In this document: positions 48 to 19,532 of the stretch, one piece after another
How the letters are laid out: every line of letters starts with the position of its first letter
Numbering within the stretch: position 1 is the stretch's first letter
IMG/VR virus record: IMGVR_UViG_3300009431_001371
Coordinates: 1-24,501 of that record
Strand: one strand, 5' to 3'
Source: a virus
DNA: 24,501 bases
Notes under the pieces: generated by a model
The model's database searches: none
Seen by the model: the letters and a program-made list of their open reading frames with translations, nothing else
What the model was told of the DNA's origin: nothing
Made by a program: the position numbers and the translations under genes

Positions 48-117
48 GACTGCTGCCTCCTGATCCAGGACGGTACCCGACAATAAGGCACCTGTCCAGT
101 TTCAGGGGTGCAGTACA
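1..117 (-). mobile_element. left end of an IS3-family insertion sequence (partial)
   Basis: On the minus strand the element begins at base 117 with TGTACTGCACCCCTGAAACT followed by GGACA. This resembles the TGT-initiated terminal inverted repeats of IS3-family elements, whose ends commonly read TGTACTG...CCCC...ACTGGACA. The orfA start lies 70 bases inside. The other inverted repeat and any target-site duplication are outside the window. Confidence 0.7.
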
Positions 118-846: not shown

Positions 847-854
847 GTGAAGCA

Positions 855-4590: not shown

Positions 4591-4774
4591 TGTTCTCGTC
4601 CTCGGGCTGCCAATGGGAGCACATGGAGCTTCCGGGCTTAGGGAGCCTCTTCGGCTCGCAAAGGCACCAACCGTCCTTGCGCCCTGCGCCAGTCCAGCCC
4701 GTCGCCGTGAAGATGCCTAAGTCGCGGCGCCAGAAGGAGCATGTTTCGCAGCATTTGCGCTGTATCTTGGCCAC
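4583..4774 (-). CDS. small Cys-rich protein, zinc-ribbon-like
   Basis: This is a 63-residue protein starting at GTG 4774 with GGAG 7 bases upstream. The longer open frame to 5014 is ignored because its upstream part only shadows the glycosyltransferase gene. It reads VAKIQRKCCETCSFWRRD and later GWCLCEP and MCSHWQP. Cysteines at 8, 9, 12, 37, 39 and 52 suggest a zinc ribbon or short zinc knuckle of the kind seen in many small phage proteins. It overlaps the end of the upstream glycosyltransferase by 58 bases in another frame and the start of the next by 8, which is long but plausible in so compact a cassette. Function is unknown. Confidence 0.6.
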   Translation of the reverse strand: MAKIQRKCCETCSFWRRDLGIFTATGWTGAGRKDGWCLCEPKRLPKPGSSMCSHWQPEDENNG

Positions 4775-5445
4775 TCTTTCTCTCCGAAAGGATCGACGTC
4801 GGTGCCGAGGTGGTGGACGATGCCGCCGGACTCGCCGGCGAAGTTCCAGGACAGCTCGTCCCGGCAGAGTGGTGTCGCGCGCCACTGGCGGGACGCGATT
4901 ATGGCGGAGAGGGCGTACTGGTCGCTCATCCACCACTCGGGGACGGGTTTCGAGATGAGGGCCCGGTTCAGCGGGTCGGGCAGGCCAATATGGGTTATTG
5001 CGCCCATCCACCAATCCAAGGCGCTGTGGAGGTGATCGGAAACGGCCCGCCGGCAGACGAAGCAGTTGTTAGAGTAGATGGGGCCGCGGCAGACGCCAAA
5101 CGAGTCCAGGATGTTGTACCAGCGCTTCTTGTTGAGCCGGTCGGAGCCCCAGGCGCGGGAGACGCGCACGCGGATGTCGACGTTCTCGTCGATGAGCTCC
5201 CGGAGGTCCCCGTTCACCCACGTGTCGGCGTTGAGCATGATCACCCACTCGGTGGGGCAGTCGCCCCCCGGCAGCACGTGAGTCATGACGCCCCAGGGGT
5301 AGTCGTTCTCGGGCACCTCGGCGATGCGGATGCGGACGCCGGGGGTGGCGCGGGCGGCGCTGTAGGCGCTGGCGGCCGCGCAACGGGGGTATGGCAGGTC
5401 GGGCGTGACGGCGTAGCAGACGGTGATGTCGCCGGGGTCGATCAT
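4717..5445 (-). CDS. GT-A glycosyltransferase, IVHH-type paralog
   Basis: A 242-residue protein. EWVIMLNADTWVNGDL supplies the D-x-D-like motif (N72-A-D74) after an N-terminal Rossmann-type half, and ESGGIVHHLGTDVDPFG closes the domain. It belongs to the same local group as the 3916 and 6672 proteins by motif layout, though diverged. An aromatic segment (LDWWMGAITHIGLPDP, then EWWMSDQ) probably lines the acceptor site. The start overlaps the methyltransferase stop by 4 bases (ATGA). The C-terminus is overlapped by the small Cys-rich gene. Predicted to be cytoplasmic; substrate unknown. Confidence 0.72.
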   Translation of the reverse strand: MIDPGDITVCYAVTPDLPYPRCAAASAYSAARATPGVRIRIAEVPENDYPWGVMTHVLPGGDCPTEWVIMLNADTWVNGDLRELIDENVDIRVRVSRAWGSDRLNKKRWYNILDSFGVCRGPIYSNNCFVCRRAVSDHLHSALDWWMGAITHIGLPDPLNRALISKPVPEWWMSDQYALSAIIASRQWRATPLCRDELSWNFAGESGGIVHHLGTDVDPFGEKEWPRYSANAAKHAPSGAAT

Positions 5446-6080
5446 GTCTCCCTCCTCGGCGTGAAGAACATGGCGTTACAGTGGATGTTCTTGCAGCAGT
5501 TGCGGATGTGGAGCTGGTCGTACCAGGCGCGCCGGAGGTCCGGGCACAGCTCGAACCCGCGCGCCTTGAAGAGGTCTACCCAGTACTCCTTGGGCCGGCA
5601 GTTGATGTGATGGACGCCCTTCTGGCCGGGTCGGGCGGCGCTGAAGAAGACCGTGCCATCCTCGCCGCATAGCGCGCAGAGCCCCTCGACCAGGCCGGGG
5701 GCGTAGCCGGCCTCGAGGTGCTCGCCGACCTCGACGCAGAGGACCAGGTCCCAACTGCTGCCCTGGTCGAGGCACCAGTCCCGAGCGCGCAGATCACAAT
5801 CCATTATGCGCCCCTCGCAGACGGGGTGGCACGAGCTCGTCCGTCTGATAAGGTCCGCGACGCCGTCCACGCCCCATACGCAGACCTGCGGCCGATGCAG
5901 GAGCCAGTACTCCATCCACCAGCCGCGGCCACAGCCGACGTCGAGGACAGAGTTGGGCCGCTCGATGCAGTCGAGCGCGGCGGCCATGTCCTGCTTGGCG
6001 GCGTACTGGTCGATGCCGCGCTGGGCGCCCTTGGTCTCGTACTCCTCGCGGTAGATTTCCTCAAGGCTCGGTTCTGACAT
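5442..6080 (-). CDS. class I SAM-dependent methyltransferase
   Basis: A 212-residue Rossmann-fold methyltransferase. Motif I is SVLDVGCGRGWWMEYW (44-59, the SAM-binding glycine loop), an acidic residue follows in VWGVDGVADL, and LVLCVEVGEHLE is motif IV, followed by VFFSAARPGQKGVHH. The layout matches Methyltransf_11/23-type enzymes that methylate small molecules or sugars. Between glycosyltransferases, sugar O-methylation (capping of a glycan) is the most economical role, but this is inferred from context. A GGGGAGAG ribosome site precedes the ATG at 6080. It is Cys-rich (C104, C114, C137, C140 region), which is unusual but without a clear metal-site pattern. Confidence 0.85.
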   Translation of the reverse strand: MSEPSLEEIYREEYETKGAQRGIDQYAAKQDMAAALDCIERPNSVLDVGCGRGWWMEYWLLHRPQVCVWGVDGVADLIRRTSSCHPVCEGRIMDCDLRARDWCLDQGSSWDLVLCVEVGEHLEAGYAPGLVEGLCALCGEDGTVFFSAARPGQKGVHHINCRPKEYWVDLFKARGFELCPDLRRAWYDQLHIRNCCKNIHCNAMFFTPRRET

Positions 6081-6100: not shown

Positions 6101-6682
6101 CTACTGTCTGCGGCTATCTGTGATTTCAACCCACCAGACGTGATGGGGTTCGATGTGGACGTCGTCGCCGAAGGCCTCGCGCACTGCCCGGATGACGCCC
6201 CACTCCTCGCCCGCCCTTGAGCGGGCCAGGAAGTCGTGGCCGGCGACGATGCCGCCGGGCCGGACCTTCGGGGTCCAGGCCGCGATGTCCTGGCGCACGT
6301 ACTCGTAGGAATGATTCGCGTCGATGAAGACGAAGTCGAGGTGGCGGTCCGGGAGGGCCATCGCCGCCCAAAGGCTGAACGTTCTCAAGATGAAGACCCG
6401 GCCGATGTGGGGCGTGATGCGCTCCATGAATTCGCGGAAGGCGCGGTCGAAGCTCTCCCGATCGCGGCGCTTCGAGGCGGCCAGGAACGCCTGATAGGCC
6501 GGGTATGGCAGCCAGGGATCGACGGCGTAGTAGGTATGGAGCGCCGGCAAGTGCCGGAGGAGACGGACGGCGGTATGGCCGCGGTTGACGCCCACCTCGG
6601 CGCCCGTGCCATGGGGGCGGTCCTTCAGGAGCCGGATCAGGACGGCGGCGTGGTTCGGCGGTTTGGCCGGCTTATTGCTCAT
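6101..6682 (-). CDS. class I SAM methyltransferase, Methyltransf_24/CmcI-like
   Basis: A 193-residue protein. GAEVGVNRGHTA (27-38) is the SAM-binding loop. LDFVFIDANHSYEYVRQDI (115-133) followed by PGGIVAGHDF (142-151) is the characteristic D-x-x-H-x-Y plus GHD signature of the Methyltransf_24 family, where the Asp/His residues bind a divalent metal for O-methylation of sugars or phenolics. It overlaps its upstream neighbour by 11 bases with GAGGAGAG before the ATG. It is probably the second O-methyltransferase of the glycan cassette; the methyl acceptor is not deducible. Confidence 0.85.
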   Translation of the reverse strand: MSNKPAKPPNHAAVLIRLLKDRPHGTGAEVGVNRGHTAVRLLRHLPALHTYYAVDPWLPYPAYQAFLAASKRRDRESFDRAFREFMERITPHIGRVFILRTFSLWAAMALPDRHLDFVFIDANHSYEYVRQDIAAWTPKVRPGGIVAGHDFLARSRAGEEWGVIRAVREAFGDDVHIEPHHVWWVEITDSRRQ

Positions 6683-7370
6683 GGCGTCTCTCCTCGAGGG
6701 CGGACTCGAGGCGGCCGGCGGCCTCGAGCTCGGCGTAGACCACCCCGTTGAAATGGTGGATGATGCCGGGCGTCTCGGGGCGGCTGTGCCAGGAGAACGT
6801 CTCCGGCCCCTTCCAGCCCGTCAGCCCGTCCGTGACGCCCGCCTCGGCGAGGGCCATAGTGACGGCGACCTGGCCGGGTTTGCGGTGCGGGCGGTCGAAG
6901 ATGATCGGGCGGTAGTCGAGACAGAAGCGGGTCCAGTGGGGCAGGCGCGGGATGACGCGATCGGCGAGCTCGCGCGTGATGTAGAAGGCGCCGTTCCAAA
7001 CCGGCGCCCGTGGCGCCAATCTTGTGCTGGCCAGCATGCCCAGCCACCGATCGTTGTGCCAGGCCGGGTGCTCGTGGAGGGGCGAGGCGCGGACGAGGAT
7101 GTCCTGCCAGCCGAAGCTGCGGCGGAGCTGCACCGGCTCGTGGACGTCGCCCGCCGCGAGGACGTCGGCGTCGATGGAGAGCACCCAGGGCGTCTCTGCC
7201 TGGAGGATGCCCTGTAGCCGGTCGGCGTCGCCGCGGCCGGCGCGGCGCTTGTAGGTGTAGAGGATCGTCCGGACGTCGGGCGCCAGGGCCAGGACCGAGT
7301 CGAGGGCGCGCCTGGCCCGGGCGATCCAGACGGGGCCGCTTGCGGCGCAGACGACGGTCAGCTCAGACAT
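6672..7370 (-). CDS. GT-A glycosyltransferase, IIHH-type paralog
   Basis: A 232-residue protein starting at ATG 7370 (MSELTVVCAASG). The open frame extends further upstream, but that part only shadows the sulfatase-like gene. Features are TPWVLSIDADVLAAGDV with DAD at 67-69, a central ASPLHEHPAWHNDRW segment, then TFSWHSRPETPGIIHHFNG at the C-terminus. It closely follows the layout of the 3916 protein, including the SPL segment after the acidic motif and MALAEAGV before the terminal motif, so the two are paralogs. The start overlaps the sulfatase-like stop by 8 bases. Confidence 0.78.
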   Translation of the reverse strand: MSELTVVCAASGPVWIARARRALDSVLALAPDVRTILYTYKRRAGRGDADRLQGILQAETPWVLSIDADVLAAGDVHEPVQLRRSFGWQDILVRASPLHEHPAWHNDRWLGMLASTRLAPRAPVWNGAFYITRELADRVIPRLPHWTRFCLDYRPIIFDRPHRKPGQVAVTMALAEAGVTDGLTGWKGPETFSWHSRPETPGIIHHFNGVVYAELEAAGRLESALEERRHEQ

Positions 7371-8226
7371 AGCCCAGGGCCTCCAGTTTCTCGCGTGTCG
7401 CGGTGGCGGCGTCCGCGGCGGTGCCGCCGACGATCTCGGGCGTGAGCTGCAGCCAGGGGACCCGGTAGAGCTCCTCGTCGCGCCAGTCGGCCTCATGCCC
7501 GAACCGGCCCCCGGCGCCGAGGACCTCGCCGTGGTCGGATGTGACGACGATCCGCCAGCCGGGCCGGTAGGCCCAGAGGGCGCGGGCCAGGTCGCGGGCC
7601 GCGTCCCAGACCAGGCGCAGGTTGCCCAGGTATGCTTCCTTGACTTCCGGCCAGGTGCACTTGCCCTCGCGGACGGCGACGTCGGGCCGGGCCAGGGCGT
7701 GGCATTGCCGCCAGAGGTCGCCCTTGCCGCGTCCCCACCGCGCCAGCGGCAGGGCGGGCTCGCCGATGAAGGGGCTGTGCGGCTGGAGGTAGTGGACGAC
7801 GAGCGGGCACTGCGAGTCTGCCCCCCACCGGTCCCACGCCATCACCAAGCCGTTCAGCGCCTGGGGGTGGACCGACGGGATGCGGTGCGGCGTGTGCAGG
7901 CCCCAGACTAGACCCCAGGCGCTGACCAGGTTCACGCGGTTGCCCAGGGGGCCCTCCTCCCGGCTGACGACCGGGTTCGCTGTGAAATAGGTCCAATCGG
8001 ACCTATAGGACCTATTGCTTCGGCCTCCTCCGCCGGCCTGCCGGAGCTGCCCCAGCGCCTTGATCCAGCCGGCGGTGCAGCATGCCGGCGAGCGGACCGC
8101 CTCGGCGGTCTTGCCCTTCGGCAGGTCTCGGCCGGCGACGGCGTTGAAGGCGTCGGCGCGGCAGGCGTCGAGCACGACCAGCACGTCCCACTCGCCGGCC
8201 GCAATGAGGTCGAGCTGGTCTCTCAT
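7363..8226 (-). CDS. sulfatase/alkaline-phosphatase-superfamily enzyme
   Basis: A 287-residue protein. WDVLVVLDACRADAF (13-27) gives the first metal Asp (D20). SPACCTAGW (46-54) is the position of the nucleophile, most likely Thr51, because the CxPxR sulfatase motif that matures to formylglycine is absent. IVVTSDHGEVLG (D231, H232) and RFGHE (H244) supply the second metal ligands. It is therefore more likely a phosphatase, phosphodiesterase or phospho-group transferase than a true sulfatase (inference). The segment 69-79 (RSNRSYRSDWT) comes from copy D of the 9-base repeat. No signal peptide or membrane anchor is visible. GAGGAGGTGA lies before the ATG. In this glycan cassette it may add or remove a charged substituent on the sugar. 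Confidence 0.78.
   Translation of the reverse strand: MRDQLDLIAAGEWDVLVVLDACRADAFNAVAGRDLPKGKTAEAVRSPACCTAGWIKALGQLRQAGGGGRSNRSYRSDWTYFTANPVVSREEGPLGNRVNLVSAWGLVWGLHTPHRIPSVHPQALNGLVMAWDRWGADSQCPLVVHYLQPHSPFIGEPALPLARWGRGKGDLWRQCHALARPDVAVREGKCTWPEVKEAYLGNLRLVWDAARDLARALWAYRPGWRIVVTSDHGEVLGAGGRFGHEADWRDEELYRVPWLQLTPEIVGGTAADAATATREKLEALGYV
7986..8021. repeat. 9-bp repeat cluster, copy D
   Basis: Units read AATAGGTCC, AATCGGACC, TATAGGACC, TATTGCTTC. They are in frame within the sulfatase-like gene, in a Gly/Ser/Arg-rich stretch that looks like a surface loop. Confidence 0.8.
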
Positions 8227-8230
8227 GGGA

Positions 8231-8458
8231 TCACCTCCTCGCGAGGCGCATCGAGCCGTCCGGGTTGAAGGGCCAGTTCTCGGGGCGGGTCGCGCTCTCG
8301 GTCATCCAGATCTCGTGCACGATGACCTTCCCGTTGTTGGAGGCGGCGGTGGTCTCGAAGACGTAGCGGTACGTCGTGCCGGCGCAGCCGATCAGCACGA
8401 CGGCCGCCAGCGCGAGCAGGCAGAACAGAATAAGTCGCATAGGCCCTATCGGTCCCAT
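8231..8458 (-). CDS. small lipoprotein with repeat-derived N-terminus
   Basis: The core protein MRLILFCLLALAAVVLIGCAG starts with a hydrophobic signal segment ending in the lipobox LIGC, so it should be lipidated on Cys and membrane-anchored. About 50 residues follow (TTYRYVFETTAASNNGK..., ending DGSMRLARR) with no recognised domain. AAGGAGG is 5 and 8 bases before two tandem ATGs (8461, 8458), whereas the ATG of the core (8440) has no good ribosome site. The repeat copy E therefore sits between the ribosome site and the old start and adds MGPIGP to the N-terminus. In a phage, a small lipoprotein may act in lysis (spanin-like) or superinfection exclusion, but this is not shown. Confidence 0.72.
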   Translation of the reverse strand: MGPIGPMRLILFCLLALAAVVLIGCAGTTYRYVFETTAASNNGKVIVHEIWMTESATRPENWPFNPDGSMRLARR

Positions 8459-8461
8459 CAT
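8438..8461. repeat. 9-bp repeat cluster, copy E
   Basis: Units read CATAGGCCC, TATCGGTCC, CATCAT on the plus strand. On the minus strand this forms the first codons (MMGPIGPM) of the lipoprotein gene, directly after its Shine-Dalgarno sequence. Confidence 0.75.
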
Positions 8462-9400: not shown

Positions 9401-9673
9401 CTATCCCCCGCGTCGGATGGCCTCGATCTTCCGCCAGGTGAACTCCTGGGCGAAGATAACGAGCCAGAGTACGGCAGTAATACCCCATGCCACGGGTGCG
9501 AATTTCAGGCCCAATCTGAGCCCACAACCGACGTACACGATAAGGGCCAAGGCAGTGACGCCGCTGGTGAAGGGGCGGACGCCGGGGCGCCGGCCGAACC
9601 CCGCCCACACCTGGGGGATGAGAGCCCCGACGAAGAAAAACGAGAACACCATCATTATTCGGTCTTCGATCAT
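9401..9673 (-). CDS. small membrane protein, about three transmembrane segments
   Basis: A 90-residue protein starting at ATG 9673, overlapping the stop of the 789-residue glycosyltransferase by 4 bases (ATGA). Hydrophobic segments are about 6-22 (IMMVFSFFFVGALIPQV), 38-56 (GVTALALIVYVGCGLRLG) and 59-76 (APVAWGITAVLWLVIFAQ), followed by a positively charged end (WRKIEAIRRGG). Size and topology fit a class I holin or a small membrane partner of the glycan pathway; the sequence does not decide between these. Translational coupling to the glycosyltransferase favours a shared job. Confidence 0.65.
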   Translation of the reverse strand: MIEDRIMMVFSFFFVGALIPQVWAGFGRRPGVRPFTSGVTALALIVYVGCGLRLGLKFAPVAWGITAVLWLVIFAQEFTWRKIEAIRRGG

Positions 9674-12039
9674 TCGCGATTCCTCCAGTACTCGGTGAGC
9701 TTCCGGATGCACTCGTCCCGGTGCTCGAAGTGGCCGGGCCGAAGCGCCCTGGAGCGGGCGTCCTCCTTGCCAACCTGCTTCCAGCGTCCCGCCAGCACCG
9801 CCGGCACGAGGTGATAGTTCGGCAGGCCGCGGCTGATGCAGAGGTTCACGTAGACGTCGTCCTCGCCCGGATCGACGCCGGGGATCGCCATCGGCACGCG
9901 GGCCAGCAGCCGCGTGGGAAAGAGCATCATCCGGCCCTTGATCAGGTCCACGCGCCGGTCCGTCTTCGAGCGGCCGTTGACGTGGAGGCCGGCCTTGTAG
10001 CTCTTCCCCTCGACGCGCCGGTAGCCGAACGGCCCGACTATGCCCTCCGGGCAGAGGCGGCGCTGCGCGTCGATGGCGTCGGCCAGCACGCGCTCGTCGG
10101 CCAGGGCCAGGTCGTCGTCGAGCGAGCAGACGTAGTCGGTCTTGACCCCGGTGGCCATCCACCAGCGGGGCATGCAGCCGAGGTTGCGCGAGGGCGAGAT
10201 GACCAGGCCGATCATGGGGTGCTCTGCGATGGGCAGCAGCCCGCGCACGCCGGCGCGGTACTTGAGGCCGCCGCTCTCGCCGAACCCGTTGTCCCAGATG
10301 GCGACTTCGGGCTTGATCGTCTGGCGCGCCAGAGACTGGAGGACGATGGAGATGTTCTCCGGCCGGCGCCAGTTCAAGAGCACGACCGTGACGGTGGGGG
10401 CGGCAGGATTTGTCGGGTGAGTTGACTTGTGTGTGCCTTGGCCTTTCGCATGGGTGTCGCCTCCTTTCGGGCCGCCCCTCACCGTCAGTGCCTTGCGGTA
10501 TTCCTTGAGTCTGTCGCCCGTGGCGAAGCGCTCCTTGTCCTCGATCTGGTAGGCGTCGGCGGTGGGGTTGACGACGATCCTGCCGCCGGGGGCCAGCAGC
10601 CTCTTTGCGGCGGGCCGGCACGCCTCCGCCATCTCGCCGCCGAGGGTTATCAGGTCGAAGGGCTTGGCGTCCTTCAGGAACCCCGCCGCCTGCGGGTCGG
10701 TCCAGTGGCGGAGCTCGACCTGGAGCAGCTTCACGCCCAGGCGTTTCAGGAGCGGGCCCCAGTTCTGCGCCCGGTGCCGGTTCCATTCCAGGCAGGTGAT
10801 GTCATTGCCCGGGAACACAGGGTAAATGAGGGGAGTACTCTCGCCGGGACGCCACTGCAGTATCCGGAGCGGCCTGTCGGCCAGGGCGTCGGCCGTCAAG
10901 GCCAGCCCTGGCAGCCAGGCGTGGTCGTTGTGCGGCTCGGTTATCTTCGCGCCACGCCCGCACAGGTAGGTGAAGATGCGCCGCTCAGCGCCCCAGGTCC
11001 AAGGGAGCGGGCCGGGGCGGTCGGCGCGGGCCTGCTTCGCCAGTCCCTCGACGTGCTCGCGGATGTATGTCTCGCAGAAGGGCCGGAACCGCTCGTCGAA
11101 TGTCTCCTCGGAGAGCAGCGCCGCCATCGAGTAACAGACGTTCTTCCAGGTCTCCAGGCCGGCGTTCGGGACGGGGTTGGTCTCCTTGTAGTGGTGATGG
11201 GTCTTCAGGTCGCGGCTGACCAGGACGGGGATGCCCAAGAGGAACGCCTTGACGGCCAGCGCCTGCTCGCTGAAGCCCCAGCGTCCCGCCACGTCGTCCC
11301 AGAGCCTGCCGGTGGGCGCCGAGAGCCGCTCGATGGTCTCGCGGCCCATCACGTAGCAGGCGCCCATCGGTGATGGGACGCGGATCCATTCGGGTTGATG
11401 TTTCGGATAGATGCGGTATTTCGGCTGGAGGCCGTAGCCGAGGTTCCAGTGCAGGTCGGCGCCCCAGGCGCGGAACCCGTGCGGCTTGCCCGTCTTCTTG
11501 TCCCGCCAGCCGGCGGCCTTCGACGTCACAATCGCGCCGGACTCGACGGCCTTGGCCGCGAGCGCCTCCATGACGCCGGGCGGGAACCGCATGTGGGCGT
11601 CGTGGAAGCTGACGACGTCGGCGCCGGAGGCAAGCGCGGCGGCCAGGCCGGCGTTGCGGGACCGCCCGACGCCCAGAGGTTTCTCATGCCTGATGATTAC
11701 GCCGTCGGGGTGCCCCAGCGCGGTCGCGCGGCCGACGGCCGGCTTCGAGCCATCGTCCACTACGACCGGCACAAGCCCCGCGATGAAGTCCGTGATGGGC
11801 CCGCACAGGCTCTCGACGGTCTTGTAGACCTCCTCGCCCTCGTTGAAGGAGGTGATGACGGGGGCGAGCATCAGGGGCGCGGCGGGTTTTGCCACGGTGA
11901 TGGCCTCCTTCGCCTTGCGGAGCAGCTTCTTGCGGCAGCCCTTGCAGCCGCGCTTGTCCCGCCGCCCCGCGTGCGGGCGGGGGCGGGGGCCGCTCGCTTT
12001 CATCTCGCGCAACCGCTTACGGAGTGTCGATTTCGACAT
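9670..12039 (-). CDS. three-domain glycosyltransferase: GalNAc-transferase-like, methyltransferase-like, GT2
   Basis: A 789-residue fusion. After a basic start with CxxC (32-35), residues 58-290 form a GT-A domain: VVVDDGS (92-98), VVSFHDAHMRF with a DXH metal motif (D147-H149), PSPMGACYVM (222-231), RWGFSEQALAVKAFLLG (253-269) and THHHYKE (280-286). DXH with these later blocks is the layout of polypeptide GalNAc-transferases rather than ordinary DXD GT2 enzymes. Residues about 390-525 resemble a class I methyltransferase with a degenerate SAM loop (QWRPGEST) but a kept LEWN and LAPGGRIVV. After a Gly/Thr/Pro linker (522-548), residues 549-789 are a second GT2 domain with SLDDDLAL (641-643). 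It is the first enzyme after the structural genes, overlapping an upstream small gene by 23 bases. Donor sugar is unknown. Confidence 0.82.
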   Translation of the reverse strand: MSKSTLRKRLREMKASGPRPRPHAGRRDKRGCKGCRKKLLRKAKEAITVAKPAAPLMLAPVITSFNEGEEVYKTVESLCGPITDFIAGLVPVVVDDGSKPAVGRATALGHPDGVIIRHEKPLGVGRSRNAGLAAALASGADVVSFHDAHMRFPPGVMEALAAKAVESGAIVTSKAAGWRDKKTGKPHGFRAWGADLHWNLGYGLQPKYRIYPKHQPEWIRVPSPMGACYVMGRETIERLSAPTGRLWDDVAGRWGFSEQALAVKAFLLGIPVLVSRDLKTHHHYKETNPVPNAGLETWKNVCYSMAALLSEETFDERFRPFCETYIREHVEGLAKQARADRPGPLPWTWGAERRIFTYLCGRGAKITEPHNDHAWLPGLALTADALADRPLRILQWRPGESTPLIYPVFPGNDITCLEWNRHRAQNWGPLLKRLGVKLLQVELRHWTDPQAAGFLKDAKPFDLITLGGEMAEACRPAAKRLLAPGGRIVVNPTADAYQIEDKERFATGDRLKEYRKALTVRGGPKGGDTHAKGQGTHKSTHPTNPAAPTVTVVLLNWRRPENISIVLQSLARQTIKPEVAIWDNGFGESGGLKYRAGVRGLLPIAEHPMIGLVISPSRNLGCMPRWWMATGVKTDYVCSLDDDLALADERVLADAIDAQRRLCPEGIVGPFGYRRVEGKSYKAGLHVNGRSKTDRRVDLIKGRMMLFPTRLLARVPMAIPGVDPGEDDVYVNLCISRGLPNYHLVPAVLAGRWKQVGKEDARSRALRPGHFEHRDECIRKLTEYWRNRE

Positions 12040-12256
12040 CCAGGTCGATCCCCTCTTTGGTGCAGACGGCCTCGACCAGGCGCGCGGCCTCGCGCACGCC
12101 GCCGGGGCCGCCGAAGTTGAACAGGTCCTTCTCGGCGAACTCCGCCAATGCCTGGGCCTGCTGCTCCTTGGTGGTCACCTTCAGCCAGGGCCCATAGCCG
12201 CGGGCGATCATGATGTCCGCGAGCTCATCGACTTGCTGCTCGGTCATCTCCGGCAT
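12017..12256 (-). CDS. small acidic hypothetical protein
   Basis: A 79-residue protein, MPEMTEQQVDELADIMIARG at the start, mostly helical and acidic, ending EGIDLDVEIDTP. No domain is recognised. GGAGAGGAAG precedes the ATG at 12256. It lies between the 902-residue structural protein (stop at 12272) and the three-domain glycosyltransferase, overlapping the latter's start by 23 bases in a different frame. It could be a chaperone or small partner of the adjacent structural protein, but the sequence alone does not say. Confidence 0.6.
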   Translation of the reverse strand: MPEMTEQQVDELADIMIARGYGPWLKVTTKEQQAQALAEFAEKDLFNFGGPGGVREAARLVEAVCTKEGIDLDVEIDTP

Positions 12257-12271
12257 GTCTTCCTCTCCTGG

Positions 12272-14980
12272 TTATGAGACGACGCACGTGCCGCAGCCGG
12301 CGTCGCTGAGCCCGGCGTCGAGCGCGTAATTCCCGCCGGGGCAGCCGTCGGTGTTGGGCATCTTCCAGATGCACTGATAGAGCCAGCCGATGGGTTCCTG
12401 CCAGACGCGGCCGCGCACATACCACGTATTGGCGTCCGCCACGAACCCCCACCCGGTGGGGCTGCACTCGACGTCGATCTCGTAGCTGCCGGGCACGAGC
12501 TTCCAGCCGATGCAGTCGGTGATGTCGCCTATGTCGTGGGCGCCGTTCAGGACGGCCACGTTCCCGCCGCAGGCGGCGATGGTGACCGTCGTCTCGGTGC
12601 AGCCGGTGCAGTCCTCGGGGCAGGCTTCCGGCGGCGGCTCGGTCGTCGTGCTCGTGGTCGGCGCGGCGGTGGTCGGCGTGGGCGCCTCGGTCGTCGTCGG
12701 GCAGGGGGTCTCGACCACGGTGACCGACCCCGCGTCGCCGCAGATGCAGCTATACGTCCCTGTCGGGTCGCAGGGGTCGGTGGCGCCGGAGTCCTTGAGC
12801 CAGCCGTTCTCCCCGTGGATGATGAGCCAGCCGGCGACGGGGTGGAAGATCAGCTCGACGACGTCGCCCGGCGGCTGGCCGTACTCCTCCTGGGTCGTGG
12901 TCGCCGGGGCGGCCGTGGTAGTCGTCCCCTCGACGCAACTCAACTCGCCCTGCCACCAGCACCCGATGCCGTCGGGGCCGTTCACCGAGGCCAGCCACTC
13001 GAGCACCGCCGAGCAGCCGCCATACGCGACCCCGCAGCAGGGGCCGTCGAAGTCGAGCAGGTAGCACAGGTCCGACAGCTCCCGGCAGTCGTCGCAGGCG
13101 GGGGTCGTGGTCGGCGCCGCGGTGCTGGTCGGGCCGGGGGCGCCGGTCGTCGTGGTGCCGGGCGCGCCGGTCGTCGTGGACACAGGGGCCTGCGTGGTCG
13201 TCGTCGTGGGGGCGTTGGTCGAGGTCGAGTAGTTGGCGCCATCCTCCGGCGGCTCGGGCGCCACCTGGCAATCGAGCGTGTCCTCGGCCAGGTCGCGGGC
13301 GGTCTTGATCTCCCGGTTCAGGTAGAGGCGCCTCTTGAGCTCGCTGTAGCCCTCGAGCATGAAGAACGTGTTGGCCGCCGTGATCTCGGTCAGGTTGGCC
13401 TCGAAGTCGTAGAGCACCTCGACGGCGTTCAGCGCCACCTCGGACCAGTCCATCGGGTCGGGGTCGCACCCGCCGATGGTCGGCGCGGTGAGGTTAGTGA
13501 CGTTGTAGCGGTAGGTCAGGTCGATACCGAACGGGTCGGCCAGGTCGCAGCGCAGCGCGCCCTGGAGCCGCACGTCCTCGTGCTGCTCCAGCAGGCGCTC
13601 GGCGAGGGTCTCCATCTCGGTCTCTTCCTCGGCGTCGCCGGAGGCCGGGTAGCTGGAGGTGTGGCGGAAGGCCGGGTCGTAGACCCAGAGCGTGCGCTCG
13701 TAGCCGTAGCACTCGTAGGCCGTGCCCTCCGGGCCGGCCCCGGCGGTGAAGGGGCGCCGGGCCCAGTACCAGCCCCAGAGCTTCTCGCCGGGGCCGAGCG
13801 TGGGCACGTAGTAGAACATGATGATGCCGGTGGCCAGGCTCAGGGCCCACCTGCTGCCGGGCACGAGGCGCACCAGGTATGCCTTCGCGCCGGCGTCGGT
13901 GCCGCGGTAGATGCGCGGGCCACGGTGGATCGAGACGACGTTGTCGGGCACGCCGCACTCGGCCCCGCCGCCCTCGCAGGAGCCGTCCGTGCCGACGTTC
14001 CGGGCGGTCCAGGCCCGGTATGGCTGGGCCAGCGCCCTGTAGGCGCACGGCCAGCCGCGCCAGGGCGAGGCGATCAGCTCCAGCTCGCCGCCGCCGTTGA
14101 GGGCCGGGTTGCCGCTGCCCTCGATGTTGGAGGGTTTCACCTCGACCGTCAGGTCGGTGCCCTGGACGACGACCTCGCTGTAGACGCCCTCGAGGCTCCA
14201 GTCGACGCGGTTGCCCAGGAGCAGGTAGTCCTTGCCGACCTCGTCCTGCCAGTGGCCCAGCTCGCCGGCGGCCAGGTCGGTGGTCGGCAGGGTCGGCAGG
14301 TCGTGCAGGCGCAGCACGCCCATCTCGTCGATGTACCAGCCCCAGAACCCGCCCGCCAGCCCGAGCAGCATGTCGAGCGCATCGGCCACGGGGGTGTCGC
14401 TGACGCTGAACTCGCCGATGGCGCTGTCGATGGCCAGCCAGTCGGCGGCGTCGTAGCCGACGATGTCCAGGCCGGTCAGGTAGGTGTCGGTGACGCATGA
14501 GGCGGCCGAGTGGTGGCCGGCGATGTCGCTGCCGGCGGCGGGGATGCCCAGGGCGTGTTCGAGGATGTCGATGCATATCTCGCCGGCGGCCCACTTGCCG
14601 CCGTCGCGGCCGGGGGAGTCCTCGCCGCCGCCGCGGGAGCAGCGGTAGCCGCGCCGGTTCCAGACGTAGAAGGCCGAGCCGTTGATGCGGACGATCTCCT
14701 CCTGGAGCCGGAACCGGCGTCCCTTGCACAGCCACTTGATGCCCTCGCCCTCGACGCCGCCGGGGCTGGCCTGGAGCGCGTTGCCGCGGAACAGGATGCG
14801 GCCCATCTCCGAGTCGCGCAGCTCGACCCAGTCGTAGAGGTCGATGACGGCGCCGCCGTCCTGGTCGTGTCGGCCGGCGCAAGAGAGCTCGCAGGACCAG
14901 GGATCGAGGTATCCCCGCCGCAGCCAGTTGGCCTTGAGGTCAGTGCTCAACGCCCCGTTTGTATAGACTTCAATCGCCAA
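12272..14980 (-). CDS. large virion protein: hub-like N-terminus with Thr/Pro linkers and Cys-rich domains
   Basis: A 902-residue protein starting at TTG 14980 (GAAGGG 7 bases upstream). The first ~470 residues (VELRDSEMGRILFRGNALQA, then DTPVADALDMLLGLAGGFWG) resemble phage late-control/baseplate-hub-type proteins, with a short insertion rich in Trp and Gly. After residue 580 the chain becomes modular. Three Thr/Ala/Pro linkers (about 585-627, 685-698, 757-786) separate compact Cys-rich modules (CDDCRELSDLCYLLDFDGPC; then a Trp/Cys module; then the final ECPEDCTGC-like module ending CGTCVVS). The many cysteines suggest disulfides or metal sites in an extracellular part of the particle. It probably combines tail-tip structure and receptor binding (inference). 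The position after the tail genes and before the glycosylation cassette supports this. Confidence 0.6.
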   Translation of the reverse strand: MAIEVYTNGALSTDLKANWLRRGYLDPWSCELSCAGRHDQDGGAVIDLYDWVELRDSEMGRILFRGNALQASPGGVEGEGIKWLCKGRRFRLQEEIVRINGSAFYVWNRRGYRCSRGGGEDSPGRDGGKWAAGEICIDILEHALGIPAAGSDIAGHHSAASCVTDTYLTGLDIVGYDAADWLAIDSAIGEFSVSDTPVADALDMLLGLAGGFWGWYIDEMGVLRLHDLPTLPTTDLAAGELGHWQDEVGKDYLLLGNRVDWSLEGVYSEVVVQGTDLTVEVKPSNIEGSGNPALNGGGELELIASPWRGWPCAYRALAQPYRAWTARNVGTDGSCEGGGAECGVPDNVVSIHRGPRIYRGTDAGAKAYLVRLVPGSRWALSLATGIIMFYYVPTLGPGEKLWGWYWARRPFTAGAGPEGTAYECYGYERTLWVYDPAFRHTSSYPASGDAEEETEMETLAERLLEQHEDVRLQGALRCDLADPFGIDLTYRYNVTNLTAPTIGGCDPDPMDWSEVALNAVEVLYDFEANLTEITAANTFFMLEGYSELKRRLYLNREIKTARDLAEDTLDCQVAPEPPEDGANYSTSTNAPTTTTTQAPVSTTTGAPGTTTTGAPGPTSTAAPTTTPACDDCRELSDLCYLLDFDGPCCGVAYGGCSAVLEWLASVNGPDGIGCWWQGELSCVEGTTTTAAPATTTQEEYGQPPGDVVELIFHPVAGWLIIHGENGWLKDSGATDPCDPTGTYSCICGDAGSVTVVETPCPTTTEAPTPTTAAPTTSTTTEPPPEACPEDCTGCTETTVTIAACGGNVAVLNGAHDIGDITDCIGWKLVPGSYEIDVECSPTGWGFVADANTWYVRGRVWQEPIGWLYQCIWKMPNTDGCPGGNYALDAGLSDAGCGTCVVS
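12625..12712 (-). repeat. Thr/Ala/Pro-rich linker 3 in the hub-like protein
   Basis: Encodes PTTTEAPTPTTAAPTTSTTT. Mixed ACC/ACG/ACA codons are used, so the pattern is kept at protein level rather than being a simple DNA tandem repeat. Confidence 0.8.
12890..12928 (-). repeat. Thr/Ala/Pro-rich linker 2 in the hub-like protein
   Basis: Encodes TTTTAAPATTT between two Cys/Trp-rich modules; a short version of the same linker type. Confidence 0.8.
13100..13230 (-). repeat. Thr/Ala/Pro-rich linker 1 in the hub-like protein
   Basis: Encodes several TTT(T)xAP units (TTTTTQAP, STTTGAP, GTTTTGAP, TSTAAPTTT). It resembles a mucin-like stalk and joins the hub-like part to the first Cys-rich module. 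Confidence 0.85.
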
Positions 14981-15003
14981 TTGAACGCCCTTCTATATGC
15001 CCT

Positions 15004-15834
15004 CTAAGCGGGGGTTGTGGTGGTGGTAAACTCCCAGGCGCCGTAGACGCCAATGTCCTGCACGAACTCACACTCGACGACGGTGTGCTTGCGGTCCGTA
15101 TGGCGCGGTCGCACGCCCTCGAGCAGGACCCCGGCGTAGGCGTTGCCATTGGCCGTCAGGGCGACCGGGCCGGGGCCGATCGCGCGGGCCAGGTCCTCCA
15201 GGTCGGTCGCCAGGTTCTCGGTCGCGGCGATGCGCTCGGTCTCGACCAGGAACCTGATCAGCGCCCCTGCCGGCGGCACGCTCGTGCGGGCGCCGCGCGC
15301 GCGGGGCAGCTCGCGCATGGGCCAGGAGCGCTGCATCTCGATCCTCATCACGCCGCCCTCGCCCAGGTCGACGCCGCCCGCGCGGTAGTCCTGCGCGTTT
15401 GTGGTGCCGGGGTATGCGGCGGGCGCGGCGGGCACGGATCCCCAGGCGGGCTCGGAGGACTTCTCCGGGCAGGCGAAGTCCAGCTTGAGGTCGGCGAACC
15501 GGAAGGCCCGCACCTGGCCGGAGCCGCCGACGCAGACGGCGTCGCCGAAGACGTGCCGGTGGCCCCGGTTGTCCTCGAAGGCCAGGTCGCCGGCGGTGCT
15601 GGTGGCGAGGGCCGCGAGCATCTCGTAGACGTATCGTTCGGCATCGCCCAGGTTCGACCGCAGTCTTTGCCCCGTGGCCTTCAGCTCCAGCACCCCACCC
15701 CCGGACGCCAGCACCACCCCCGGTTCGGCGTAGGGCATGAGGGCGACGTTTCGCCGCCGGGCCGAGGGCGTCACGAATACGTGCCGGCCCAGCTCCAGGC
15801 TCACCGTCCCGTCATCGAAGTATCCCGCTGCCAT
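15004..15834 (-). CDS. putative phage structural/tail protein with Thr tail
   Basis: About 276 residues from ATG 15834 (MAAGYFDDGTVSLELGRHVF); GAGGGAG lies 11 bases before it. A GTG at 15861, overlapping the previous stop as GTGA, is an alternative giving 285 residues. It is beta-rich and contains DLEDLARAIGPGPVALTANG and HTVVECEFVQDIG. I do not recognise the family; the position between a tail-tube-like gene and the large hub-like gene suggests a tail or baseplate component. The last residues are EFTTTTTPA: a five-Thr run (15013-15027) appended to an otherwise ordinary domain end, matching tails on the 16116 and 19011 proteins. Confidence 0.62.
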   Translation of the reverse strand: MAAGYFDDGTVSLELGRHVFVTPSARRRNVALMPYAEPGVVLASGGGVLELKATGQRLRSNLGDAERYVYEMLAALATSTAGDLAFEDNRGHRHVFGDAVCVGGSGQVRAFRFADLKLDFACPEKSSEPAWGSVPAAPAAYPGTTNAQDYRAGGVDLGEGGVMRIEMQRSWPMRELPRARGARTSVPPAGALIRFLVETERIAATENLATDLEDLARAIGPGPVALTANGNAYAGVLLEGVRPRHTDRKHTVVECEFVQDIGVYGAWEFTTTTTPA

Positions 15835-15857
15835 TGCTCTTGGATCTCCCTCGTGTG

Positions 15858-16094
15858 TCACCTGGCTGTCGCGAGCGCCTTCATGAGGCGTTTGACACGT
15901 TCCATCTCGGCTCTTAGGGTCTGGACGGCTTCCAGGGCCCTGCCGTGCAGCCGCAGGTTCTCCTGCGCGGTTTCAAGTATCGCCTCGCGCAGGCGCACGA
16001 GTTCGCGGGTCTGCGCGGCGTGGGCGTCGACGACCTGTTCGAGCGCCCGGTCCGCGGGCGGTCGCGAGGGCGACTGTTCCGCGTGCTGTGCCAT
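15858..16094 (-). CDS. short coiled-coil protein
   Basis: A 78-residue protein. After a polar N-terminus (MAQHAEQSPSRPPADR) the rest is one long amphipathic helix with heptad-like Leu/Val/Ile spacing (ALEQVVDAHAAQTRELVRLR then VQTLRAEMERVKRLMKALAT). AGGAGG lies 7 bases before the ATG. It is located directly after the tail-tube-like gene, where tailed phages usually keep tail chaperones and the tape-measure gene. It is far too short for a usual tape measure. It may be a chaperone, a minimal length-determining helix, or a structural spacer; none can be chosen from sequence. Confidence 0.65.
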   Translation of the reverse strand: MAQHAEQSPSRPPADRALEQVVDAHAAQTRELVRLREAILETAQENLRLHGRALEAVQTLRAEMERVKRLMKALATAR

Positions 16095-16115
16095 GTCAAT
16101 GCCTCCTGCGCCGCG

Positions 16116-17060
16116 CTACGGCGCGGTGGTTGTCGTGGTGATCGGGGGCGCCAGAGAGACCTCCCAGGTGAGGTCCGCACCGCTTTCGTCCGCCGCGGCC
16201 TCCAGCCTCGCGTGCGAGAGCGCCAGCCGCGCGGGCGGCGCGTCCTCGGAGCTTTCGGCCGGATGCAGGACCGGCAGCTCCAGGCTCATCTCGTGCCCGT
16301 CGGGATGCGTGAATTCGGCCTCGAAGGCGATGGTCGCGCCGCCTCGGATCGCAGCGTTGAACTCGTCGGTGCCGTCGAGCCTGGTCAGCTCCAGCGCCAC
16401 CGATCTCTGGCCGGCGGCAAGCCACGCGACGTAGCCGCCCTGGTTCGGGCCGGGCCGGACCGAGTTGTCGACCGTCAGGCTGAAGCCCTCGACGTCGAGC
16501 GCGGCCTCGCCGGCAATCGTCACGGCGGCCCGCCGCAGCGCGAAGGGCGCCGCGGTCAGGCCCTCGTAGTCGAAGTCGTCCTCCGCGAGGGCGTCGTTCT
16601 CGACCTCCTTGCGCGCCCGCAGCCGCAGAAGCAGCCTCACGGCGTCGGGCTCGGCGCGGATCTGGAGGCCCTCGACGACGATGCCGAGGTAGCGGCGCGG
16701 ATCGGGCGGCGTGTAGAAGTCCACGCAGTAGCTCTCGAGGTCGCCGTAGCGGGGGCTGGCCGGGTCGGCGTCGCGATCCAGCGCCGCCCCGAGCAGGTAG
16801 CCCGTCAGCTCAGGCCGGGCGAGTACCTCGACCTGGCCGGCGGTCTCCTGGAGTTCCGGCAGGACGAGGCTGCGCTTCCAGCCGCCGAACCCCGTCGCGG
16901 GCCAGAACAGCGAGGCGGCGGCCTTCAGGCCCATGACGCCGCGCTCGATCGGTACGGCGCGCCACTCCGGCGAGAGGGGCGCGACACCCCAGGTGGTCTC
17001 CTGCGCCCACCGCATGTGGCGGCGCCATCCCTTGTGCACGTCTGTGCCGGGTCCGGGCAT
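16116..17060 (-). CDS. tail-tube-like protein with Thr tail
   Basis: A 314-residue protein starting MPGPGTDVHKGWRRHMRWAQ. The opening QETTWGVAPLSPEWRAVPIE, the central LTVDNSVRPG and the beta-rich make-up fit the general pattern of phage tail tube proteins, which often begin with a QETTWGT.P-like segment. They assemble as stacked rings forming the DNA channel. GGAGG lies 10 bases before the ATG. Neighbours support it: a tail-completion-like gene upstream and a coiled coil downstream. The last residues are PPITTTTTAP; the five Thr codons (16125-16139) are ACC, ACG, ACA, ACC, ACC. The tail is probably a surface-exposed addition after the folded domain. Confidence 0.62.
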   Translation of the reverse strand: MPGPGTDVHKGWRRHMRWAQETTWGVAPLSPEWRAVPIERGVMGLKAAASLFWPATGFGGWKRSLVLPELQETAGQVEVLARPELTGYLLGAALDRDADPASPRYGDLESYCVDFYTPPDPRRYLGIVVEGLQIRAEPDAVRLLLRLRARKEVENDALAEDDFDYEGLTAAPFALRRAAVTIAGEAALDVEGFSLTVDNSVRPGPNQGGYVAWLAAGQRSVALELTRLDGTDEFNAAIRGGATIAFEAEFTHPDGHEMSLELPVLHPAESSEDAPPARLALSHARLEAAADESGADLTWEVSLAPPITTTTTAP

Positions 17061-17081
17061 CTTGTCTGCGCCTCCGGTTCG

Positions 17082-17531
17082 CTAAGCACGCTTCCAGGCA
17101 ATCGCCATGTCGATCCGCGCGCTCCAGAGGATGCGCGCGTCGCCGGCGGCCGGAACGGGCCGCCACGTGATGCCCTCGACCTCCAGGCCGGTCACGCCGT
17201 CGCCGGCCAGGCCCAGGCACGTCGAGTCGCACGCCACGATGCGGTCGAGAACCAGCGCCACGAGCTCCTCGCACGGCTCGGCGTCCTGGCCGTCGGTGGC
17301 CACCTCGATGCGCAGGCGCTGGGAGAGGTCGGTCAGGGCGTTGCAGGTGCGCAGCGCATCGCCCCCGGCCGGCGAGAGCGCCAGCAGGGGACAGTCGGCC
17401 GGCTCCATGCGGAACCGCCGCCGCAGCCCGGCCCCGAACTCGAACCAGGTCTTCACGCGCGCGGCGATCTGCACGTCGGCCTTCAGCGCGTCAAGCAGCG
17501 CGTCGCGACCATCTGTCAGGAAGTTGGCCAT
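17082..17531 (-). CDS. tail-completion / head-tail connector-like protein
   Basis: A 149-residue protein, MANFLTDGRDALLDALKADV at the start. It has an alpha-helical opening, a middle with LRIEVATDGQDAEPCEELVAL and then a beta region ending IDMAIAWKRA. The size, the opening helix addressing repeated subunits, and the position between the DUF1320 gene and the tail-tube-like gene match phage tail terminator or neck proteins, which cap the tail tube and join it to the head. Family assignment is from layout rather than a specific motif. AGGAG lies 6 bases before the ATG. Confidence 0.55.
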   Translation of the reverse strand: MANFLTDGRDALLDALKADVQIAARVKTWFEFGAGLRRRFRMEPADCPLLALSPAGGDALRTCNALTDLSQRLRIEVATDGQDAEPCEELVALVLDRIVACDSTCLGLAGDGVTGLEVEGITWRPVPAAGDARILWSARIDMAIAWKRA

Positions 17532-17565
17532 GCTCTGCTCCTGGGGTGGTGGCGGGTCGGGGGCA

Positions 17566-17985
17566 TCAGAGCGGCTCCCCGCGGCCGAAAATCCTCGGCT
17601 CGGTCTCGTAGCGCACGCCGGGGGCGCGGTCGCCCTCGGCCGCCGACGGCTCGATGCCGAGCGAGACGTTGCCGGCGACGACCTGCCGCAGCCACGCGAC
17701 GTCGTCCTCGTACTGCCGGCGCACGTCCTCGGTGGCGCTGTCGCGGCCCAGCCGCAGGAAGTAGACGGCCAGGTTCACGGCGCGGGTGCGCAGCACGTCC
17801 GGCACTGGGCTGACCGGCACGCTGAACCTGACGCTCAGGTAGCTGTCGACAAGCGAGCAGGCGTCACCTATCGCCGCGGCGACCACGTCGGCGTCGGGCA
17901 GGCCGTCGCCGTCGTAGTCCGCCAGGGCGGCCAGGTCGGTCTCGCCGATGCGCGTCTCTACGTCGCTTTGGGTGCAGTAAGCCAT
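17566..17985 (-). CDS. DUF1320 (Mu gp36-like) head-tail connector protein
   Basis: A 139-residue protein starting at ATG 17985 with GGGAGGAG just upstream; the longer frame to 18117 runs through the non-coding hairpin and is not used. MAYCTQSDVETRIGETDLAA, the DADVVAAAIGDACSLVDSYL helix and AVNLAVYFLRLGR are the hallmarks of DUF1320/gp36 proteins of Mu-like phages. These follow the major head gene and are thought to act at the head-tail joint. Here too it comes directly after the gpT-like capsid gene. Confidence 0.85.
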   Translation of the reverse strand: MAYCTQSDVETRIGETDLAALADYDGDGLPDADVVAAAIGDACSLVDSYLSVRFSVPVSPVPDVLRTRAVNLAVYFLRLGRDSATEDVRRQYEDDVAWLRQVVAGNVSLGIEPSAAEGDRAPGVRYETEPRIFGRGEPL

Positions 17986-18013
17986 CGTCTCCTCCCGGGT
18001 CTGAAGCGGGCTG

Positions 18014-18050
18014 GCCTGCCCCGCGGCACCGGGTGTCGCGGGGCAGAGGC
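18014..18050. promoter_or_regulatory. strong hairpin between capsid and DUF1320 genes
   Basis: GCCTGCCCCGCG (18014-18025) pairs with CGCGGGGCAG-A-GGC (18037-18050), a 12-bp stem with one bulged A. The loop extends it with CAC/GTG (18027-18029 with 18033-18035). It lies 30 bases past the capsid stop in the direction of transcription. No U-run follows, so it is not a standard intrinsic terminator. A mRNA-stabilising or attenuating role after the most needed transcript is likely (inference). Confidence 0.55.
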
Positions 18051-18079
18051 CCGTGAGCGGCTCACGTGAGCGTGCCCGC

Positions 18080-18964
18080 TTATGCGCCGTTAGAGGCCTG
18101 GATGAGCCACGGTGCAAGGACGGCCACGGCGCAGCGTCGGCGGCCCTTGTAGGCGTAGATCTCCCGGTAGAACGCGTCGTCGTCGGCCGGGTCGTCCTTC
18201 GCCGTGAACTCGGGGCCCTCGCGGTCCTGGAGCACCATCGGCTTGACCGGATCGTCGTCGATGACGAACCAGGCCGTGCTGCTGCCCAGGCGTGGCAGGA
18301 CCATCAGGTCCGTGCGCTTGTAGCGGCGGTTGCTGGAGCCGTCGGCCAGGTACTGGATCTCGACCAGCTCCTCGGCGGTGGCGCGAAGCTCGATGCCGCA
18401 CACCAGCAGCCTCGGCACCAGGCCCAGCGCCGCGCCGTCGGGACCGGCCCTGCCCTCCAGGGCGAGGCAGGCCGCGTCGAAGTTGTCCGCGTCCAGGGCC
18501 ACGTCGCTGCGGTTGGACCAGCCCTGCCCGCCCGGCCAGGTGTGGCTTGTGCCGAAGACGCTCTGGCCGTCGATCCACTCGTCGGTGAACCCGGACAGCA
18601 GCGCCTCGACCGCCAGGCGCAGCGGGTAGAGCGCGGCGCGGCGGCCAAGCTGTCGCACGCCCGGCCGGTAGACGCCGACGTTGTCGTCGGCGATGTCGTT
18701 GCGCCTGACCTGAACGATGCGTGCGAACGTGCGGTTCGGCACGCTCTTGACGAAGCGCCCGATGCTGGTGATGGTCACCTCGTCGAGCACCTCCTCCAGG
18801 TCGCCCAGAAGGGTCGCGATCGGATAGTGCTCGGTGTCGGTGGTGCTTGCGACGGTCTCCATCAGGCGTTCGATCTCGGCGACTTCCGTTGAGCGGACGG
18901 CCTCGGCGAAGGTCGCCTTCAGCCCGGTGAAGACGGCTTGCAAGTTGCCCTGTGTTACGTCCAT
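18080..18964 (-). CDS. major capsid protein, Mu gpT-like
   Basis: A 294-residue protein that fits Mu-like major head subunits of the gpT type: it opens MDVTQGNLQAVFTGLKATFA, has a long alpha helical/beta core, and includes LRLAVEALLSGFTDEWIDGQ, SVFGTSHTWPGG and ATAEELVEIQYLADGSSN. The C-terminal part contains FVIDDDPVKPMVLQDREGPEF. It probably forms the icosahedral shell on the scaffold encoded upstream. AAAGGAGG is 8 bases before the ATG, among the strongest ribosome sites in the window, consistent with high output. Gene order (protease/scaffold, decoration-like, capsid, DUF1320) agrees with Mu-like phages. Confidence 0.83.
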   Translation of the reverse strand: MDVTQGNLQAVFTGLKATFAEAVRSTEVAEIERLMETVASTTDTEHYPIATLLGDLEEVLDEVTITSIGRFVKSVPNRTFARIVQVRRNDIADDNVGVYRPGVRQLGRRAALYPLRLAVEALLSGFTDEWIDGQSVFGTSHTWPGGQGWSNRSDVALDADNFDAACLALEGRAGPDGAALGLVPRLLVCGIELRATAEELVEIQYLADGSSNRRYKRTDLMVLPRLGSSTAWFVIDDDPVKPMVLQDREGPEFTAKDDPADDDAFYREIYAYKGRRRCAVAVLAPWLIQASNGA

Positions 18965-19010
18965 CCTTCTGTCCTCCTTTTCTCACGCGGCGGCTCGAGG
19001 ATCGCTCCCC

Positions 19011-19499
19011 TTAGGCCGCAGCGGTAGTGGTCGTGGTTGCCGGAGCGGCCGTTGTGGTGGGCGGCACCCAGCTCTTGCCCGTCTGCGCGTAGTGGTCGAT
19101 GGTTATCCAGCACTCGCCGCTGGACTCGATCTTGTCGATGCGCCCGCAGGCGATCGAGTTGGTGGTGTCGGAGTCGTCGGCCACGGTCTGGTCGTCGTAG
19201 ACGCAGACCTCGCCGCTCATGGACGCCTGGTCCAGGGCGCTTGCCGAGTCGAAGCGGTATCGGCCGCGCCGCCGCACCACGACGCTGACGTCGCCGTCCG
19301 CGCCGGAGCTGTTGTCGGCCTGCTGTGTGGCGACGCCCTCGAAGACGTAACCCGCCGTGTCGGCGCCGGGCACCGCGTAGCCGGCGGCGTCGGTGCACAC
19401 AAGCGAGCCGGCGAATATCTCCTCGCCCGCCGCGACGGGTATGGCGAGCAGATCGCCGAGACTGTAGTCAGTGCTTCTGTCCTGCGTCAGTGCAGTCAT
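19011..19499 (-). CDS. capsid decoration-like protein with Thr tail
   Basis: A 162-residue protein starting at ATG 19499 (MTALTQDRSTDYSLGDLLAI), where GGAGGAG is 6 bases upstream; a start 5 codons earlier is possible. It resembles DUF2190-type and decoration proteins that sit between scaffold and capsid genes: IPVAAGEEIFAGSLVCTDAA and AGYVFEGVATQQADN are typical of these beta-barrel capsid-surface proteins. The C-terminus ends PPTTTAAPATTTTTAAA (19014-19061), a Thr/Ala/Pro tail. If it decorates the capsid, many copies of the tail would be exposed on the particle. Five of the Thr codons at the end are ACG, ACC, ACT and ACC in mixture. Confidence 0.72.
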   Translation of the reverse strand: MTALTQDRSTDYSLGDLLAIPVAAGEEIFAGSLVCTDAAGYAVPGADTAGYVFEGVATQQADNSSGADGDVSVVVRRRGRYRFDSASALDQASMSGEVCVYDDQTVADDSDTTNSIACGRIDKIESSGECWITIDHYAQTGKSWVPPTTTAAPATTTTTAAA

Positions 19500-19532
19500 T
19501 CGAGTCTCCTCCAAAGTCGAGCTTTGAGAATG

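Follow-up and report, generated by a model that had tools for sequence, protein, structure and literature searches.

A candidate O-glycosylation system in a Mu-like phage: a GT27-like enzyme encoded next to threonine-rich virion proteins

The window analysed here is a 24.5-kb fragment (24,501 nucleotides) of a virus genome from IMG/VR (IMGVR_UViG_3300009431_001371), the main genes of which lie on the minus strand and run from a Mu-type head module through tail genes to a cassette of enzymes. Several of its virion proteins carry threonine (Thr)-rich tails or linkers, and the first large gene of the cassette, 9670, encodes a protein whose N-terminal domain is closest to the GT27 family of polypeptide N-acetylgalactosamine transferases (GalNAc-Ts). 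We consider it probable, albeit well short of certain, that this Mu-like phage, with hosts probably of the Planctomycetota type, encodes a soluble cytoplasmic system for O-glycosylation of its own virion, in which the GT27-like domain starts on Thr residues of the tails. The proposal is built on direct observation of tails, gene order, enzyme kinship and co-occurrence. As we infer the acceptor, donor sugar, order of steps and benefit, the domain would transfer a first sugar onto Thr residues in the Thr/Ala/Pro tails or linkers that the decoration, tail-tube and tail-tip proteins carry; extension of the glycan would fall to the other GT-A domain of 9670 together with the glycosyltransferases encoded downstream, and the methyltransferases, perhaps with a phosphatase-like enzyme, would cap it. 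The phage may thereby be shielded from antibodies, grazers or host surface traps, or its adsorption may be altered.

Threonine-rich tails and linkers of the virion proteins

The head module comprises a terminase, a portal protein (PF06074), a protease (PF10123), a decoration protein (phrog_1731), a capsid protein (PF10124) and gp36, and the genes share one strand, with spacings of -38 to +46 nt. TTTTTAP-like tails end three Mu-type virion proteins, 19011, 16116 and 15004, and a fourth protein, 12272, has three internal linkers (Table 1). The preliminary description of this DNA had listed the same four proteins, and its reading is borne out directly by the C-termini and the 12272 linkers. Neither 15004 nor 12272 gave a family match. 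The C-terminus of 19011 is VPPTTTAAPATTTTTAAA, and TTTAAPATTTTTAAA would be a candidate acceptor peptide. The major capsid protein (18080) lacks such a tail; therefore, the earlier suggestion that sugars coat the capsid now rests on the decoration protein.

When each protein was shuffled 2000 times, the observed Thr clustering was never reached for 19011 and was reached 27 times for 12272, 88 times for 16116 and 98 times for 15004. On their own, the short tails of the latter two proteins are thus only modestly unusual, and their weight comes from conservation. A Thr run ends the decoration protein in all 11 close relatives (63–75% portal identity), several of which are also Thr-tailed or Thr-linked at the tail tube protein, 15004 or 12272. 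Tails at the same C-terminus were seen in some relatives (15004 of L007, the tail tube protein of L015 and both proteins in L090), and the 12272 linkers recur at corresponding places. For the decoration protein, 113 matches came from cultured Mu-like phages, and the best 40 of them extend to residue 139 or 146 and no further, short of the tail. Triplet slippage was rejected as the source of the Thr runs, because their codons are mixed (ACC, ACG, ACA and ACT). In the C-terminal third of 12272 and its homologues, the Thr linkers part Cys-rich repeat-like modules (CPxGxYxL...TVY), the number of which varies among relatives.

Domain organization and GT27 kinship of enzyme 9670

Gene 9670 had been described as the first enzyme gene after the structural genes and as encoding a GT-A enzyme. 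It is indeed the next large gene, although an open reading frame (ORF) of 79 residues, 12017, intervenes between it and 12272. Likewise, the GT-A domain is present, and two further domains, one Rossmann-like and one again of GT-A type, have to be added to the description. The sequence blocks noted previously, DXH (here DAH), WGFSE and HHH, are located at residues 147–149, 254–258 and 281–283, respectively. Searches of IMG/VR, cultured phages and the PDB with the single 9670 sequence yielded no matches, and relatives were therefore reached via the portal protein. Ten homologues retain D95-D96, D147-x-H149, W254-G-x-S-E258 and H282. Among 50,697 phage records, neither 9670 nor two divergent homologues had a relative. 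Remote homologues with a D-G-H motif and WGGSE or WGLED blocks occur on two Planctomycetota chromosomes (L251 and L252), where they have no Thr-rich neighbours; their function could reveal the ancestral role.

A profile of the ten homologues was compared with the PDB, and the top 14 of 48 sequences were all GalNAc-Ts, with E-values from 1e-16 (GalNAc-T2) to 3e-9, followed by chondroitin synthase (4e-9). A control profile of the cassette enzyme 855 retrieved SunS rather than GalNAc-Ts. Residues 55–340 were modelled with AlphaFold at a mean predicted local distance difference test score of 78; in the fold search of the PDB, the first 29 rows were GalNAc-Ts (Z 22.8–26.6), the next family being GlfT2 (Z 19.2), and the top 50 Foldseek matches were GalNAc-Ts throughout. 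The preliminary description had allowed that the domain might group with GT2 enzymes not acting on proteins; by both profile and fold GT27 came first, not the GT2 enzymes of lipid or polysaccharide type, in keeping with the GalNAc-transferase-like character proposed earlier. The model of residues 352–789 contains the Rossmann-like domain and a GT-A domain in which a DDD is invariant and which is closest to KfiA and EXTL2.

The active-site residues were compared with those of characterized enzymes. In GalNAc-T2, manganese is bound by Asp224, His226 and His359, and Trp331, a key loop residue, precedes His359 by 28 positions (PMC4432651); the corresponding pair of the snail enzyme, W359 and H387, has the same spacing (PMC6994419). 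D147-x-H149 of 9670 aligns to the DSH metal motif of GalNAc-T2, and W254 and H282 are likewise 28 residues apart. It is by this spacing, not by a sequence alignment match, that H282 was equated with the third His ligand. The N-acetyl group of the donor is contacted in GalNAc-T2 by Asp224 and Gly309 (PMC6994419). The former is matched by D147, whereas the position of the latter is held by an invariant Ala227, so that the N-acetyl contacts are reproduced only in part and the donor may be a sugar other than GalNAc.

Overall, 9670 resembles GT27 enzymes in its GT-A fold, the DXH motif with a third His, the Trp-His spacing and the Thr/Pro/Ala acceptor-like sequences encoded nearby. It differs from them in Ala at the Gly309 position, in Ser-Glu in place of Glu334-Asn of GalNAc-T2, in an identity of only ~17% and in its architecture: no hydrophobic segment that could serve as an N-terminal membrane anchor and no Pfam match to a ricin-type lectin domain were found in 9670, which has the Rossmann-like and second GT-A domains instead. 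In addition, a sequence search with the C-terminal block of the GT27-like domain alone did not retrieve GT27. Because of this result, the Ala substitution and the missing lectin domain, an activity like that of polypeptide O-glycosyltransferases is better supported than identity as a GalNAc-transferase, and GalNAc, suggested by the preliminary description, is no more than a possible sugar.

Co-occurrence of the enzyme and the tails

The enzyme predicts the tails, and the tails do not predict the enzyme. Thr-rich proteins were found in 12 of the 14 short-listed enzyme-bearing contigs (the window, G001, G002, G004, G006, G011, G107, G108, G109, G112, G113 and G188), and in all five close-relative records that reach that far the 9670 homologue sits after the 12272 homologue. 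Contig G111 C160, which encodes the enzyme close to one end and lacks structural genes, was left out of the count either way; in this Planctomycetota bin a separate structural contig, C70, ends in 15004, an arrangement that would fit one phage split in two. The most telling pairing is that of G109 (L255), a 50-kb phage with capsid and portal proteins of HK97 type (phrog_10 and phrog_12) unrelated to those of the window, in which Thr tails are carried by the protein encoded after the capsid gene and by two major tail proteins. About six proteins of this phage are Thr-tailed or Thr-rich, one of them beginning MTTTTSSSTSTTTY. An ORF adjoining its portal gene (L255, 16606–18387) has matches in DNA methyltransferase families as well as in head protease families.

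Real Thr tails were found at 0 of 60 loci that share a related portal and lack the enzyme; these were counted over all ORFs of the GC-rich DNA, and inspection of the few matches revealed no structural protein with a tail of T-A-P type. Of the 60 records, 45 were searched whole, with neither the enzyme (0/45) nor any PF00535 match (0/45) detected. A host-lineage effect was considered as the source of the tails and rejected: other Mu-like prophages in Planctomycetota have none (0/8), and two members of the window's clade in Planctomycetota have them. Tails occurring equally in related phages without the enzyme, which had been named beforehand as evidence against the pairing, were thus seen neither in these loci nor in these prophages. 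Matches in metagenome-assembled genomes were to Brocadiaceae, other Planctomycetota and one Zipacnadia bin, from which the hosts are probably Planctomycetota.

Several results weigh against glycosylation of the tails by 9670, in addition to the behaviour of the C-terminal block described above. Within the Mu-like clade, co-occurrence goes back largely to a single inheritance; as the contigs are not independent, a Fisher test of co-occurrence was not used as evidence. Two short enzyme-bearing contigs, L249 (7.8 kb) and L254 (15.7 kb), have no Thr-rich protein. Furthermore, TTTTAAPTTTT is present at at least 120 stretches in other viral contigs, those inspected lying in real-looking ORFs and often tailing proteins of 100–140 residues. 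None of 50 whole Thr-tail records matched the enzyme strongly; one gave a weak partial match (profile positions 19–111), and 12 contained a PF00535 enzyme. Thr tails are therefore far commoner than the enzyme and are not supported as its hallmark; they can serve without it, and either work without sugar or are attended by other enzymes. Across the IMG/VR loci L109–L188, proteins of environmental phages commonly bear poly-Thr/Ala/Pro tails or linkers, mostly with no recognizable GT2 glycosyltransferase in the record.

The abundance of tails in contigs without the enzyme would be expected if they served simply as flexible linkers or as sticky extensions, with the cassette modifying another target, for instance the host surface or phage DNA; phage glycosyltransferases often change host serotype or DNA, according to review text in PMC12619734. 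We nevertheless regard this explanation as unlikely, since enzyme-less related phages also lack the tails, the unrelated phage G109 has the same enzyme-tail pairing, the 9670 domain resembles protein-glycosylating GT27 enzymes and the cassette directly follows the tail genes. Moreover, no cassette protein contains a hydrophobic stretch of membrane length (maximum KD19 1.56), unlike in GtrB-type O-antigen conversion, against which this argues; the absence is consistent with virion proteins being modified in the cytoplasm, either ahead of assembly or in the course of it.

The enzyme cassette and comparison with known systems

The other cassette enzymes are given in Table 1. The phosphatase-like enzyme reported earlier, 7363, does match the alkaline-phosphatase/sulfatase superfamily, albeit weakly, and homologues are kept in the cassettes of L090, L091, L093, L094, L096 and L107. 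The profile of 855 placed SunS first and also listed the flagellin glycosyltransferase GmaR, making 855 a second candidate peptide glycosyltransferase; its match to SunS is weak and far below the family cut-off. These affinities could mean that the tails receive their first sugar from another enzyme, such as the SunS-like 855, and that 9670 acts later. This order of events seems quite improbable to us, given the GT27 metal and Trp positions in 9670; in addition, G109 has both the tails and the DXH enzyme, and the part of it that was examined yielded no homologue of 855. A small protein encoded between the enzyme genes (8231–8461) has a lipoprotein-like signal (LLALAAVVLIGCAG) and may be a lysis lipoprotein. 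In the first part of the window (1–858) GC content falls to 62% and no clear minus-strand gene extends the cassette; this part possibly has genes on the other strand or is foreign DNA.

Table 1. Positions of the virion proteins, their Thr-rich segments and the cassette enzymes in the window
Feature	Position	Strand	Basis
Virion decoration/stabilizing protein 19011, phrog_1731	19011–19514	-	PHROGs, E 2.9e-37
Thr/Ala/Pro C-terminal tail of 19011	19014–19064	-	Read from sequence
Thr tail PPITTTTTAP of tail tube protein 16116 (gene 16116–17060)	16119–16148	-	PF18906, E 2.2e-15; sequence
Thr tail FTTTTTPA of protein 15004 (gene 15004–15861)	15007–15030	-	Sequence
Thr/Ala/Pro linker 1 of tail protein 12272 (gene 12272–14980), residues 590–628	13097–13231	-	Sequence; matching positions in relatives
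Thr/Ala/Pro linker 2 of 12272, residues 684–699	12884–12931	-	Sequence
Thr/Ala/Pro linker 3 of 12272, residues 761–786	12623–12700	-	Sequence; tandem repeat
Three-domain glycosyltransferase 9670, proposed starter and extender	9670–12039	-	PF00535, E 2.5e-14
N-terminal GT27-like GT-A domain of 9670, residues 55–340	11020–11877	-	Profile, AlphaFold, fold
DXH metal motif D147-A-H149 of 9670	11593–11601	-	Invariant in 10 sequences; aligns with DSH of GalNAc-T2
Rossmann-like middle domain of 9670	10510–10887	-	Model of C-terminal part; methyltransferase-like fold row 3e05
C-terminal GT-A domain of 9670, invariant DDD, KfiA/EXTL2-like	9673–10395	-	Model, fold search
Alkaline-phosphatase/sulfatase-superfamily enzyme 7363, putative role	7363–8226	-	PF00884, E 9e-4, below cut-off
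Putative GT-A protein, SIDAD motif, no family match	6672–7496	-	Sequence alone
Methyltransferase, Methyltransf_24	6101–6682	-	E 8e-18
Methyltransferase, Methyltransf_23	5442–6080	-	E 1.2e-11
Putative GT-A protein, no family match	4717–5445	-	Sequence alone
Putative GT-A protein, no family match	3916–4590	-	Sequence alone
GT2-type glycosyltransferase	3116–3919	-	PF00535, E 1.6e-6
GT2-type glycosyltransferase	2176–3129	-	PF00535, E 2.6e-8
GT2-type glycosyltransferase 855, nearest solved relative peptide S-glycosyltransferase SunS	855–1883	-	PF00535, E 2.6e-23; SunS profile, E 2e-11

To our knowledge, glycosylation systems of phages have been described in very few cases, with starter enzymes that are poorly characterized. 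If the proposed role of 9670 is correct, a soluble, self-contained starter and short portable Thr tails would form a testable two-part system and a tool to O-glycosylate tagged proteins in bacteria. It would also offer a hypothesis for the many Thr-tailed proteins of environmental phages, for which we found no explanation. A broader idea, which we advance tentatively and hold to be possible at best, is that of a virus-encoded prokaryotic counterpart of mucin-type O-glycosylation, in which a GT27 homologue starts O-glycans on virion tails and has spread together with the acceptor tails across unrelated phages; it may bear on the origin of animal GT27 enzymes.

The closest parallels are found in mycobacteriophages, in which glycans are attached at the C-termini of capsid and tail tube subunits (Freeman 2023, as cited in PMC12619734 and PMC11600133). 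As described there, the mycobacteriophage systems (Che8, cluster O) share with the window phage-encoded glycosyltransferases and methyltransferases, and the C-termini decorated there are of the kind that carries the candidate acceptor tails here. They differ in phage type and host, and the GT27-like starter is unrelated to their enzymes: the Che8 enzymes 108–110 matched the 9670 profile at noise level (E 0.018 or worse), and the Che8 capsid and tail C-termini are not Thr-rich. The chlorovirus PBCV-1 also encodes multidomain glycosyltransferases, A111/114R, which act outside host organelles (PMC7826918); the window resembles it in having virus-encoded multidomain enzymes and differs in the enzymes themselves and in that PBCV-1, a virus of algae, carries N-glycans on its capsid. 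No report of phages encoding a GT27-type enzyme emerged from a literature search of partial coverage. Phage-encoded virion glycosylation as such is already known; what the window would add, as a plausible but unproven element predicted from sequence, is a GT27-like starter paired with Thr tails.

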